This document shows, in pieces, positions 8,772 to 61,003 of a stretch of 64,000 nucleotides of DNA; the stretch's first letter is position 1; every line of letters starts with the position of its first letter. Below the pieces are notes generated by a model. It was not told where the DNA came from and did no database searches. It saw only the letters and a program-made list of their open reading frames with translations. A program made the position numbers and the translations under genes. This DNA comes from Halohasta litchfieldiae (GTDB lineage Archaea > Halobacteriota > Halobacteria > Halobacteriales > Haloferacaceae): the NCBI RefSeq assembly GCF_002788215.1, contig NZ_CP024845.1, positions 1,984,001 to 2,048,000 on the forward strand. The letters run 5' to 3'.

Positions 8772-8936
8772 TCAGGCGATAGTCAGCGAGAGGATCTGCA
8801 CGAGGATGCCGAACAGCAGACAGAAGGCGATGACTGTTTTCGGATTGATACGGATCGCGTTGCGATCCTCGGAGTCGAAATACCGCACGAGTCCGGCACT
8901 GGACATTAGCCCGCCGGAGTTGCCACCTGAGCTCAT
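8772..8936 (-). CDS. secG: Preprotein translocase Sec61 beta subunit
   Basis: 54 residues. A Gly/Ser-rich N-terminus ([20 protein letters not shown]) and an acidic patch precede one C-terminal membrane helix, [20 protein letters not shown]. This is the archaeal Sec61 beta topology: cytoplasmic N-terminus, tail-anchored, associated with SecYE. The ATG at 8936 gives the usual family length and N-terminal sequence. It lies divergent from the thioredoxin gene. Confidence 0.93.
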
Positions 8937-9032
8937 AGCCGAAGTTCGGCACGTCGCCACCCTAAGCGTTTCGGCTTTCGTTCGGCGTTGGAAACGCTTA
9001 TCCGCTCACCTCGGCAAACCGAAACTGGGACA

Positions 9033-11517: not shown

Positions 11518-12123
11518 ATGGAGCAGCTGGATGGTCTCTGCGTACACGACTGCACGCGCTGTCCCGATCTCGTCGACTCCCGCAGCCGGATCGTCAACGG
11601 TGTCGGGCCGGACGATGCCGACCTGCTGTTTGTCGGTGAGGGACCGGGCAAAAATGAGGACGAGCAGGGCGAACCGTTCGTCGGTCGCTCCGGGAGCGTC
11701 CTCGATGACGCACTGAGCGAGGCTGGCGTGCTGCGCGAGGAGGTCCGAATAACCAACTGTGTGCGCTGTCGACCGCCGGAGAACCGCGATCCAACCACGG
11801 AAGAACTCGCCAACTGCCGCGGCTATCTCGAAGCCGAAATCGAAGCCGTCGACCCAACCGTCGTCATCACCCTCGGCAAAGTCCCGAGCGAACACCTCTT
11901 GGAGCGCTCGGTCGGCATCACAAACGAGGCGGGCGATATCGTCGAGCCGCGGCTCGGTGACCGCCCACAGCGTGTGTTGTTGTCTGTCCATCCCGCCGCC
12001 ACGCTGTACGACCGGAGCCAACGCGAGGGATTTTTTGAGACGATTGCTCGGGCGGTCGACATCGCTGGGCTCGGTGATGGTGAGGGCTCCGGCGACGGCC
12101 AGTCGAGATTGGGTGACTACTGA
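11518..12123 (+). CDS. udg: Family 4 type uracil-DNA glycosylase (4Fe-4S)
   Basis: 201 residues. The four likely iron-sulfur ligands are Cys12, Cys15, Cys84 and Cys100. Substrate motifs are GEGPG (40-44), GEPFVGRSG (51-59), CRPPENRDP (84-92) and VHPAA near 159. This is the thermophile and archaeal family that excises uracil from DNA. The middle residue of the first motif is Gly where GEAPG is more usual. Its last 7 bases overlap the convergent Lrp gene. Confidence 0.93.
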   Translation: MEQLDGLCVHDCTRCPDLVDSRSRIVNGVGPDDADLLFVGEGPGKNEDEQGEPFVGRSGSVLDDALSEAGVLREEVRITNCVRCRPPENRDPTTEELANCRGYLEAEIEAVDPTVVITLGKVPSEHLLERSVGITNEAGDIVEPRLGDRPQRVLLSVHPAATLYDRSQREGFFETIARAVDIAGLGDGEGSGDGQSRLGDY

Positions 12124-12602
12124 GATTTCGAACTCTGTTCGGGAGCGTCCATGCTGAACAGAATAAAGGGTTGAGTCGAACAGGTCCAGATGAGATGTTC
12201 TTTTTCAACTGCGAGACCGATCTCATCCAACTGCTGTGCGATATGAGTAATCTCTGCCTTTCCGGCTGCGGCGGCTCTGATATGGACGTTTCCCGCCCCG
12301 GTCATTACGGTCATAACTTCGAGGACGCCCGGGACATCCTCGGCTTTCGTCGCAAGCCGCTCTCGCTCATTGATACGTGCGGAACAGATGAAGAGATAGT
12401 GGTGTGGAATGTCAGCGTGGTCGTAGTTTATCTGTATCGAGTAGCCTTCGATGACGCCGCGTTCTTCGAGTTTCGCGATTCGGTTGCGGACGGTGTTATC
12501 CGACACGTTCAGTTCGTCCGCAATCGCTGTCACCGGTGTTCTCGAATCCTGCTGGAGCTGATAGAGGATCTGTTGGTCGACTGCATCGAGCGAGCAACCC
12601 AT
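12117..12602 (-). CDS. Lrp/AsnC family transcriptional regulator
   Basis: 161 residues. The N-terminal winged helix is clear: LDAVDQQILYQLQQDSRTPV, then IADELNVSDNTVRNRIAKLEERGVI. The C-terminal ligand-binding RAM domain (about 65-140) has LEVMTVMTGAGNVHIRA. Such proteins form dimers or octamers that sense amino acids. The ATG at 12602 is preferred over the GTG at 12608; an inverted repeat spans the promoter, suggesting autoregulation. Its 3' end overlaps the UDG gene. Confidence 0.9.
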   Translation of the reverse strand: MGCSLDAVDQQILYQLQQDSRTPVTAIADELNVSDNTVRNRIAKLEERGVIEGYSIQINYDHADIPHHYLFICSARINERERLATKAEDVPGVLEVMTVMTGAGNVHIRAAAAGKAEITHIAQQLDEIGLAVEKEHLIWTCSTQPFILFSMDAPEQSSKSQ

Positions 12603-12629
12603 ATACACCCTCGGACAGCGCCGTGTATA
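12602..12629 (-). promoter_or_regulatory. Inverted repeat TATACAC-N14-GTGTATA at the lrp promoter
   Basis: Perfect 7-base arms at 12602-12608 and 12623-12629. The outer arm coincides with the expected TATA position of a leaderless lrp transcript and the inner arm with its start. A regulator bound here would block transcription. Confidence 0.5.
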
Positions 12630-12832
12630 GCTTCTATTCCAATATGAAACTAAAATATATCTTATAAATCTGCGGACAGTAGCCGTGGTTTGCGGACTCG
12701 ATCACAGAAGACACTAATTCCGACCGCTATATTACGTCTAATCGGTGGTCGACTGCTGCGGATTTCGAACCGCGTATATAATCTCAGGAAAATATTTTCA
12801 CAGATGTGTTTTTATACTGACACAGAGTACTA

Positions 12833-12995
12833 GGGCTTGCCAGTCGAGCCGGGGACACTGACTGGGCATGGGGGAGCCTGTCCCTATGAGATGCGTCGAC
12901 TGTATTCAACGAGAGTTCCGGGCTGGGGGGCTTGCACTCTCAGACCAGTCGGTATGCGGCTTACCATCTCATTCCGCAGTACAGTCGTTTCATCG
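12833..12995 (+). ncRNA. Candidate structured non-coding RNA
   Basis: This is the middle of a 452-base gap between lrp and the CBS gene. TTTTTATA at 12809-12816 is a good promoter with a predicted start near 12838. Perfect complementary arms follow: GGGACA 12852-12857 with TGTCCC 12879-12884, CGACTGTA 12897-12904 with TACAGTCG 12980-12987, GAGAGT 12911-12916 with ACTCTC 12936-12941, and TGCGG 12955-12959 with CCGCA 12974-12978. The last two nest inside the second. GGGCTTGC (12833, 12928) and CCAGTCG (12840, 12945) are each repeated. A T-rich stretch and a second TATA (13002-13009, for the CBS gene) follow. It does not look like tRNA, SRP RNA or RNase P RNA. Confidence 0.4.
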
Positions 12996-13054
12996 CCGTC
13001 TTTTATAATCGAACCGCCGAAACAGCAAAGCCGTCGGCCTGTAATGTGTGATGT

Positions 13055-13435
13055 ATGCCAACAGAAGTCACGCATACGGTCGAAGAGCTGATGTCGGAAC
13101 CGATCATCACCGTTTCCTCGGAGATCACTGTCAGAGACGCAGCCCGGACGATGCAGGACCATGAAATCAACGCGCTGTTCGTTCCGGGTGCTGAAGCAGG
13201 CATTGTCACCAGTTCCGATATCGTCGCCGCGGTCGCCGAGACAGGCGACACGGCCGAGTTGACGGTTGCTGATATCATGACCTCGCCGGTCGAACGCGTC
13301 CCACGGTCGCTACCGCTCGGGGAAGCTGCGGCCATGATGATCAACTTCGATATCAAGCATCTGCCGGTGGTCGACGACGACAACGACTACGTCGGGATCG
13401 TCTCGTCGACCGATGTGACGATGTCGCTCGCGTAG
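13055..13435 (+). CDS. Tandem CBS domain protein
   Basis: 126 residues consisting only of two CBS motifs, about 5-60 and 68-124. Typical elements are MSEPIITVSSEITVRDAA, INALFVPG, the DIMTSPV start of the second domain, and HLPVVDDDNDYVGIVSSTDV. Such pairs bind adenosine nucleotides and report energy state to a partner enzyme or channel, which is not evident from the neighbours. TTTATAAT at 13002-13009 is the likely promoter, implying a leader of about 20 bases. Confidence 0.9.
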   Translation: MPTEVTHTVEELMSEPIITVSSEITVRDAARTMQDHEINALFVPGAEAGIVTSSDIVAAVAETGDTAELTVADIMTSPVERVPRSLPLGEAAAMMINFDIKHLPVVDDDNDYVGIVSSTDVTMSLA

Positions 13436-49783: not shown

Positions 49784-49828
49784 CGCCACCAACAGCCGAC
49801 ACCACCCTCGATTTATATATTACACAGC

Positions 49829-51100
49829 ATGACAGACATCGATCCCACTCTGTATCCGAACGCCGAGAGCGACAATCAGCCAGTCGACGCCGTCTCTCGC
49901 AGGCGTGTGCTTGCGGGGTCGACTGCTGCCGGAGCCGCCGCAACTGCTGGCTGTCTCGGCGGGGGAGACGAACCCAACCGGGAGGGATCGACGGTGTTCG
50001 TTTTTAATACCGGTGACGGCACCGTGAGCCTCATCGACACCGCAACCAACGAGGTCGTCGGCACCACCCATCTGGGGCTGTCGTCGTCGTTCCCGTCGAA
50101 CCAGTACACGCCCCAACTGACCGACACCGACGACACCCTGTGGCTCAACGTCGACCGGGGCGTCCGTGGACTCTCTGCTGGCTCGCTCAGTGAAACCGCA
50201 CGCTTTGACACCGGCTCGGGAGCCAACTGGCTCGAACAGACGCCCGACGGACAACACCTTGTCGTCAGCGCCCGCGAGCCGGCCCACACGCTGTACCGTC
50301 TGGATGCCGACCCCGATTCTGACTCATTTGGCGAGCAGACCGGCGTGATCGACCGGACCTCGGAGGGTGGCCGCGGCGACAACGATGGACCGGGTCCCTG
50401 CGACGTGACGATCCATCCCGACGGCCAGTACGCCTACGTGCCGGATCTGTATGGCGACACGCTGACCGTGGTCGACATCCCGTCCTTCGAGATCGAAACC
50501 CAGATTGAGGTCGACCCGGTTGGCGAGGCTCCCGCCGAGCCGTGGATGGGGACGATCTCGTGGGACGGTGCTCGACTCCTCGTTGAACACAACGAAGGTG
50601 ACGCCGGTAGCGAAAGCATCTGGGATACGAGTGACCCAGCCAATCCCGAAGAGATCACCCGGCTCACGGTCGACGACGGACTGGGTGAGGGACCACTCAC
50701 CAGCGAAATCGGCCCCGAATCCGAGGTGGGCTACGTCTTCACGCCCGGCACAAACGATATCTCGGTCGTCGACCTCACAGCTGGCGAGGTCACCGACCGA
50801 CTCGACGTCGGTGGCTCGGCGTTCGTCGGCACGTGGGACCCAGCGCGGGAAACACTGTATGTCCCAGTTCAGACGACCAACGAGGTGGCTGTGGTCGACC
50901 ACGCGAGCCGGAAGATCACGGACACGATTGCAGTCGGTGACAGCCCCTACGGGGCGACTGCGGCCACGGTTCGGCCCCAGTCAGACAACACCGATGCGCT
51001 GCTGGCGAAATTGGCTCAGATGGGTGTGTTTGCGTCGACCGCAGAGACGACCTACTGCATCGGGGAGTGTGCCTGTGGCCACCAGTTAGAGCGCGACTAA
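49829..51100 (+). CDS. Beta-propeller lipoprotein, YncE-like, with C-terminal Cys cluster
   Basis: 423 residues. A Tat-lipoprotein signal (SRRRVLAGSTAAGAA, then TAGC) leads to repeated propeller blades (VFVFNTGDGTVSLIDTATNE, AYVPDLYGDTLTVVDIPS, YVFTPGTNDISVVDLTAG, YVPVQTTNEVAVVDHAS). The C-terminus after residue 400 is unusual: CIGECACGH, a compact Cys/His cluster. It is anchored outside the cell. Ligand unknown; metal or redox binding by the tail is inferred. Confidence 0.83.
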   Translation: MTDIDPTLYPNAESDNQPVDAVSRRRVLAGSTAAGAAATAGCLGGGDEPNREGSTVFVFNTGDGTVSLIDTATNEVVGTTHLGLSSSFPSNQYTPQLTDTDDTLWLNVDRGVRGLSAGSLSETARFDTGSGANWLEQTPDGQHLVVSAREPAHTLYRLDADPDSDSFGEQTGVIDRTSEGGRGDNDGPGPCDVTIHPDGQYAYVPDLYGDTLTVVDIPSFEIETQIEVDPVGEAPAEPWMGTISWDGARLLVEHNEGDAGSESIWDTSDPANPEEITRLTVDDGLGEGPLTSEIGPESEVGYVFTPGTNDISVVDLTAGEVTDRLDVGGSAFVGTWDPARETLYVPVQTTNEVAVVDHASRKITDTIAVGDSPYGATAATVRPQSDNTDALLAKLAQMGVFASTAETTYCIGECACGHQLERD

Positions 51101-51164
51101 CCGACCGGGGACCGCGTTCGGTGGCTGTCCGGGTTCTTTTGACCCCTGTCTTCGATACATACGT

Positions 51165-52472
51165 ATGGCCCTTACTGTCACGCTTCTTGGCATCGCCGCC
51201 ATCGTGCTGTTGACCGGTATCAGTGCGTTCTTTTCGAGCAGCGAACTCGCGGTCTTTTCGGTCGCCAAACACCGCATTGACAGTCTCGTTGCGTCGGAGA
51301 CGCCCGGTAGTGAGGCACTTGCGGCGCTTCGGGAGAACCCCCACCGGTTCCTTGTGACCGCACTCGTCAGCAACAACGTCGCCAATATCGCTGCTGCAAG
51401 CGTTGCGACCGCCGTCTTGATCCAGTACATGTCCTCGGGACAGGCAGCCACTGGGTCGACTATCGTCACGAGCTTTTTCGTAATCGTCTTCGGTGAGATT
51501 GCCCCGAAATCCTACGCCGTCGCCAACGCCGAACGCCACGCACTCCGTGTTGCCAGACCAGTCCAGCTCATCCAGCGGCTTCTTCGACCGATCCTCTACG
51601 TGTTCGAAGTCGCAACCGCTGCAGTCAACCGATTTACCGGCGGTGAGTCCGGGATCGAATCCTATCTGTCACGGGAGGAGATCGAGACGATCGTCCTCAG
51701 CGGTGAACAGACGGGTGTGCTTGCTACCGGTGAGGGGGCGATGATCCGAAGCGTTCTCGATCTCGAACAGACAGTCGTCCGTGCAGTAATGGTTCCCCGG
51801 ACGGCTATCGTCGCCGTCCCGTCGACGGCCAGCCTCGAGACGACAATCGAGACCTGCTGGCAGAAGGGTGTCTCTCGGCTCCCGGTGTTCGGTGAGACAC
51901 GGGACGACATTCAGGGCGTTGTCGACCTCCAGTCACTCCTTCGAGCCCGAGCGGAGGGACGGTCGCTCTCGGAGAGTATGACAGAGCCACGGTTCGTCCC
52001 CAGCACGAAACCGGTCGACGAACTGCTGACCGAGATGCAGGTCGAGGGCCACCGGATGGTCGTTGTCGTCGACGAGTTCGGCACAGTTGTCGGCCTCGCA
52101 ACGCTCGAAGACGTCGTCGAGGAGGTCGTCGGCGAGATCTTCAGTCACGATGAAACCGATCCGGTTCGTGTTGTCGACAGCGATACGGCTGTGGTCAACG
52201 GCTGGGCAACTGTCGCCTACACCAACGACTCGCTTGGCATCGAACTCCCAACCGAGGGTGCCTTCGAGACCGTGGCCGGACTCGTGACTCACCATAAGGG
52301 TCGACTCCCGCAGGAAGACGACCGTGTCGAACTCGGCAACGTCGTCATCACCGTGGTGGATGCCACCGAAACACGCGTCCGGCGGGTTCGGCTCGACTGG
52401 ACCGAACCACACATAGATTCAGTCGGCGAAGCCGCAGCGACGACCACTCCCAAGGACACCGACGCGACCTGA
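51165..52472 (+). CDS. CNNM/CorC-type membrane protein with CBS pair
   Basis: 435 residues. N-terminal CNNM domain (about four helices, with FFSSSELAVFSVAKHRI and LVSNNVANIAAAS). Two CBS motifs follow around 195-320 (VMVPRTAIVAVPSTASLETT, and the segment with MVVVVDEFGTVVGLATLEDVVEEVVGEI), then the C-terminal CorC_HlyC domain. The family is linked to Mg2+ and Co2+ export. The MgtE genes at the other end of the window could handle uptake. Confidence 0.92.
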   Translation: MALTVTLLGIAAIVLLTGISAFFSSSELAVFSVAKHRIDSLVASETPGSEALAALRENPHRFLVTALVSNNVANIAAASVATAVLIQYMSSGQAATGSTIVTSFFVIVFGEIAPKSYAVANAERHALRVARPVQLIQRLLRPILYVFEVATAAVNRFTGGESGIESYLSREEIETIVLSGEQTGVLATGEGAMIRSVLDLEQTVVRAVMVPRTAIVAVPSTASLETTIETCWQKGVSRLPVFGETRDDIQGVVDLQSLLRARAEGRSLSESMTEPRFVPSTKPVDELLTEMQVEGHRMVVVVDEFGTVVGLATLEDVVEEVVGEIFSHDETDPVRVVDSDTAVVNGWATVAYTNDSLGIELPTEGAFETVAGLVTHHKGRLPQEDDRVELGNVVITVVDATETRVRRVRLDWTEPHIDSVGEAAATTTPKDTDAT

Positions 52473-52613
52473 TGATCAAGAGGGTGTCGACGACTCGTTA
52501 TCGGTCATTGGATCGCTGTTCGAGCCAGTGTCGATAGCTCGTCGCGGTTGCTGCTGTCCATCTGTTTTATTATTGGTTATTGTGAATGGTTCTCTACCTG
52601 GGATATTCTGTAA

Positions 52614-60433: not shown

Positions 60434-60613
60434 TATGTTTGCTTGTATGTTGTGTCCTCTTGACTGTTTCGCGCGACAGTCGCTAGTTTTATTTATACCT
60501 TTTCGGCTGGATGGGTTCTGTGGTTCGAGAGAACTCACAATGTTCGTAATTTTTCGGTCGACCGAATGATGGAACAGCAAACTCTAATGGGATGGGTACC
60601 GAATCGTGAACTG

Positions 60614-61003
60614 ATGCCCACGGTAACTTACCTAAACTACGAGGTACTCGACGACGAAGGATGGGAGATCGACGACGACGATCTCTTCGCAAACGCAGAA
60701 GATGCCGGTCTCGATGACGAGGACTTTGGCTCGCTCGACGTCAACGAAGGCGAGTACATCCTCGAAGCCGCCGAGGCACAGGGCTTTGATTGGCCCTTCT
60801 CGTGCCGCGCCGGTGCCTGTGCGAACTGTGCTGCCATCGTCAAAGAGGGCGAGATCGACATGGACATGCAGCAGATCCTCTCCGATGAGGAAGTCGACGA
60901 CAAGAACGTTCGACTCACCTGTATCGGAAGCCCGGCCGCAGACGAGATCAAGATCGTCTACAACGCCAAACATCTCGACTACCTGCAGAACCGCGTTATC
61001 TAA
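60614..61003 (+). CDS. fer: Haloarchaeal [2Fe-2S] ferredoxin
   Basis: 129 residues from the ATG at 60614 ([20 protein letters not shown]). The N-terminal acidic insertion ([18 protein letters not shown]) is typical of halophilic plant-type ferredoxins. Ligands are CRAGACANC and the later single Cys in VRLTCIGSP. It is the expected electron carrier for 2-oxoacid:ferredoxin oxidoreductases. The ATG at 60566 would add 16 residues not seen in the family. Confidence 0.95.

Follow-up and report, generated by a model that had tools for sequence, protein, structure and literature searches.

The closest described counterparts of the locus analysed here are the haloarchaeal intergenic small RNAs (igRNAs). 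One of them, sRNA132 of Haloferax volcanii, is a monocistronic intergenic sRNA that has its own promoter and predicted stems and is restricted to its genus (PMC6560208). We analysed a window of 64,000 nucleotides of Halohasta litchfieldiae DNA, part of one 3.33-Mb haloarchaeal contig, in which a 452-base gap between an Lrp/AsnC-type regulator gene (lrp, minus strand) and a gene for a protein with two CBS domains (plus strand) appears to hold a candidate of a similar kind. It shares with sRNA132 and the other igRNAs a short intergenic non-coding gene, an archaeal promoter, restriction to a genus and predicted stems (PMC6560208); in contrast to them, it adjoins an Lrp gene in an apparently inserted cassette and has a putative pseudoknot and crossing helices, and no sequence relation between them and the candidate has been established. 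Its restriction to two species is ordinary, since known igRNAs are genus-restricted (PMC6560208) and most archaeal sRNAs are reported as not conserved even within a genus (PMC5852579). The 5' domain also recalls the SAM-V and preQ1 riboswitches, which are H-type pseudoknots, but the likeness of its own possible H-type pseudoknot is one of topology alone and, unlike these riboswitches, the Halohasta candidate has no Rfam match. The features of the locus are listed in Table 1.

Table 1. Features of the lrp-CBS region, in window positions.
Feature	Position	Strand	Remarks
lrp, Lrp/AsnC-type regulator gene	12117..12602	-	Divergent to candidate RNA; Pfam HTH_AsnC-type, 2e-14
Putative inserted cassette (lrp + RNA) between udg and CBS gene	12124..13016		Boundaries approximate; no target-site duplication seen
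Imperfect palindrome GCGGATTTCGAACCGC	12758..12773		One base differs in H. litorea
Conserved putative RNA promoter block	12796..12816	+	Ends in TATA box TTTTTATA (12809-12816); near-identical in H. litorea
Candidate small RNA	12833..12996	+	Predicted ends; TATA spacing would place the start near 12838
Predicted hairpin P1, CCAGTCG/TGACTGG	12840..12865	+	7 bp; one C-G pair is U-A in H. litorea (compensatory)
Possible pseudoknot helix, GGGGACA (P1 loop)/TGTCCCT	12851..12885	+	Invariant; H-type topology
Predicted helix P2, ATGAGATG (12886-93)/CATCTCAT (12965-72)	12886..12972	+	8 bp, invariant
Predicted helix P6, CGACTGTA (12897-12904)/TACAGTCG (12980-12987)	12897..12987	+	One compensatory and three wobble changes
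TTTTATAA, possible CBS promoter	13001..13008	+	Not kept in H. litorea
Two-CBS-domain protein gene	13055..13435	+	Pfam CBS; ancestral neighbour of udg (udg-CBS adjacency in G047 and G163)

Distribution of lrp and the candidate RNA

In a third Halohasta genome (G047) and in a related genus (G163), udg is directly followed by the CBS gene, so that lrp and the candidate RNA are most simply explained as an insertion of about 890 bp. The lrp gene is 76% identical to its counterpart in Halohasta litorea, the second-best match in the family being 52% identical, and it is accessory, a close homologue being absent from the third Halohasta. At the cassette's left border, the stop codon of lrp shares positions 12117-12123 with the 3' end of udg, to which lrp is convergent. 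Both lrp and the RNA sequence occur in two Halohasta species, and they are present or absent together.

Searches with DNA or with a model found no other homologue of the RNA in 170 genomes of the family or in a sample of 392 genomes of the order; the weak blast and model matches in other genera looked like chance on inspection and were mostly coding DNA, and two pattern matches in viral contigs were unrelated. Lrp relatives at 46-56% identity had no recognisable RNA copy alongside. The "haloarchaeal" scope that a sequence-only reading had given to this RNA was thus too broad, since only two species, both Halohasta, have the element. A mobile element was rejected, since the cassette is single copy in the genome and has no plasmid match; no terminal repeats or target-site duplications were noticed at its junctions.

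Conservation of the promoter block and the non-coding core

The window was compared with the syntenic lrp/CBS gap of H. litorea R30 (G046; contig NZ_JANHDJ010000007.1). The TATA box that had been proposed in the gap is present where it was placed and is kept in H. litorea, within a block that is near-identical over about 21 nt, giving the candidate a predicted basal promoter of its own, as in intergenic sRNAs. Some 36 bp before the TATA box lies the conserved palindrome GCGGATTTCGAACCGC; a related site adjoins lrp in H. litorea, and the palindrome is a possible operator for a regulator, which might be Lrp itself.

Promoter and core together have 83% blast identity (about 12756-12950). The non-coding core of about 120 nt is 88% identical over ungapped columns, and a global alignment of 12833-12952 with gaps counted as mismatches gave 82%, compared with 61% at fourfold-degenerate sites of the syntenic genes and 49% in the spacer adjoining lrp. 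This conservation of the DNA itself is a stronger signal than the stem statistics given below. Several of the gaps scoring above this one contain missed genes, as judged from periodicity or a reading frame, and the similarly conserved gap that remains as clearly non-coding, at 60434-60565, separates divergent promoters. That gap is about 84% identical to H. litorea and has a palindrome, TTCGGTCGACCGAA, just 5' of a ferredoxin-like gene (60566-61003); it is probably operator DNA.

Elsewhere in the window, about 2.8 kb (49784-52613) match the syntenic H. litorea region poorly and include one frame resembling a secreted beta-propeller-type protein (49829-51100) and another resembling a CBS/CorC-type membrane protein (51165-52472). 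A small GTG-started gene on the minus strand (8772-8960), of the sort easily missed when only ATG starts are called, resembles a Sec61-beta/SecG subunit and has 97% DNA identity to H. litorea over 100 bp.

The earlier statement that no protein frame explains the gap was borne out. The window has two open frames, 46 and 84 aa long, that might be taken for a small protein gene, but in H. litorea they are broken by interruption or frameshift, and the 1- and 2-nt indels between the two sequences, together with the lack of a clear codon periodicity of substitutions, argue against a conserved protein. The coding reading was accordingly rejected, and we regard it as very improbable. The sequence thus lies between genes and has no conserved reading frame, like other intergenic sRNAs. 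The Infernal search that had been proposed matched no known family among the Rfam 15 covariance models (riboswitch, RNase P, SRP, snoRNA and others) at gathering or relaxed thresholds; a tRNA was likewise rejected, none having been found. No terminator conserved between the window and H. litorea was found for the candidate.

Complementary arms and competing helices

All the complements and repeats listed in the sequence-only reading were found in the window, including the two copies of GGGCTTGC (12833 and 12928, 95 apart), those of CCAGTCG (12840 and 12945, 105 apart) and the upstream 6-bp pair GGGACA/TGTCCC (12852-57 and 12879-84). Helices were derived from a hand alignment of the window and H. 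litorea, the anchors of which were confirmed with a global aligner. The region 12840-12885 contains a conserved 7-bp hairpin, P1 (consensus over both species CCAGTYG/YRACTGG), and the possible pseudoknot formed with its loop, both of which that reading had missed. The GAGATG/CATCTC pair that it had noticed is real and is in fact the 8-bp helix P2, which encloses P5 (12897-902/12946-51; CGAYTG/CAGTYG, with wobble changes between species) and P3 (12911-16/12936-41), a conserved helix with one mismatch.

The pair 12897-12904/12980-12987 (P6) had been described as closing the structure. It is a perfect 8-bp pair in the window, is conserved, and can be extended by GATG (12890-93) with CATC (12991-94), but it crosses P2 and competes with P5. 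Since P2 and P6 are both conserved and mutually crossing, neither can be the single closing helix, and they could coexist only as a pseudoknot, otherwise being alternative folds, as had been anticipated for the GAGATG/CATCTC pair. Of the two hairpins said to be enclosed, TGCGG/CCGCA was dropped, because it is lacking in H. litorea, where a different 5-bp hairpin is found. The predicted minimum-energy fold of H. litorea includes most of P2, together with P5, P3 and this 5-bp hairpin, whereas that of the window contains P6, the P2 fold being just 1 kcal/mol higher. The CCAGTCG copy at 12945 varies between the species in step with the copy at 12840, so that either copy is a potential partner of the middle strand.

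The 171-nt transcript stretch folded no better than its shuffles (z +0.23), and 12897-12987 alone (91 nt) gave z -2.57. Seven stems of at least 7 bp were conserved across the two species, against 0.8 in column shuffles. Equally many were found in 19% of syntenic windows, mostly coding, and therefore the stem count is not special; the argument that many conserved stems imply an RNA was dropped for this reason. At least three stems of at least 7 bp with a compensatory change occurred in 1.3% of syntenic windows; two of the three such stems present here use the same middle strand and so are not independent. In all, the two sequences give about two independent compensatory pairs. RNAalifold gave z -3.55 from 12885 onwards, within the top 0.8% of 1073 syntenic windows, for a placement picked after trying eight; the 5' domain gave no signal (z -0.1) in this test, to which pseudoknots are invisible. 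The covariance folding of the syntenic gap that had been suggested as a check thus yielded, for P1 and P6, a small number of compensatory changes whose support, coming from two sequences, is suggestive. Conserved secondary structure, a trait of some igRNAs including sRNA132, is suggested by these results, not proved.

Possible functions of the gap

The interpretation that we favour, and hold to be somewhat probable, is that the gap encodes a stand-alone, genus-restricted intergenic small RNA, divergent to a co-inherited Lrp regulator and acting in trans, because promoter and core are conserved far above neutral sites, no frame survives and no Rfam family matches, and because of the compensatory changes in P1 and P6, the wobbles in P5, the RNAalifold result and the co-presence of lrp and the RNA.

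Alternatively, the RNA could be a structured 5' leader of the CBS gene, riboswitch-like or coupled to Lrp, in which P2 and P6 would control read-through or translation; both helices are conserved and cross each other, and the CBS gene starts about 65 nt 3' of the candidate on the same strand. The window does contain the CBS gene's own TATA that had been reported at 13002, which speaks against a leader, but in H. litorea nothing of the kind lies between RNA and gene; the independence of the CBS gene is consequently not shown in that species, and the leader reading survives for this reason. The stretch from the RNA to the CBS gene is poorly conserved, and G047 and G163 have the CBS gene without the RNA, which thus tracks lrp and not the downstream gene, as a riboswitch acting in cis on CBS would. 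We give the leader a limited chance. A control region of lrp and CBS at the DNA level, in which repeated CAGTCG-type motifs bind a protein and complementarity is a by-product of the repeats, would fit the roughly five CAGTYG-like motifs in both orientations, the unexceptional stem count and the similar conservation of 60434-60565. We consider it quite unlikely, as conservation runs over 115 nt downstream of the conserved TATA box, changes in the motif keep its partners matched (C-G to U-A in P1) and about 19-20 nt of loop sequence that does not resemble the motif are unchanged between the species.

Under the stand-alone sRNA reading, rightward transcription from the TATA box would give an RNA of roughly 130-160 nt, whose 5' part may form a hairpin, possibly an H-type pseudoknot, and whose branched 3' domain may adopt either P2 or P6. 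The divergent Lrp-type regulator probably controls it, and the RNA would most likely act in trans on mRNAs via conserved unpaired G-rich loops. A bolder proposal, that it is a bistable pseudoknotted riboregulator switching between P2 and P6 on a ligand or on its partner Lrp, carried with its regulator gene on an accessory cassette and representing a new class of haloarchaeal structured RNA, seems to us improbable. The candidate is a credible new example of haloarchaeal small RNAs and not a new kind, unless a switching fold is demonstrated.

Comparative backing for a structure is available for few small RNAs of archaea, and a plausible transcriptional regulator dedicated to the RNA is likewise known for few. 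If lrp and the RNA were acquired jointly, as a divergent pair, by part of one genus, they would offer a compact system in which to test the wiring between regulator and sRNA, and would also serve to test how such RNAs arise.
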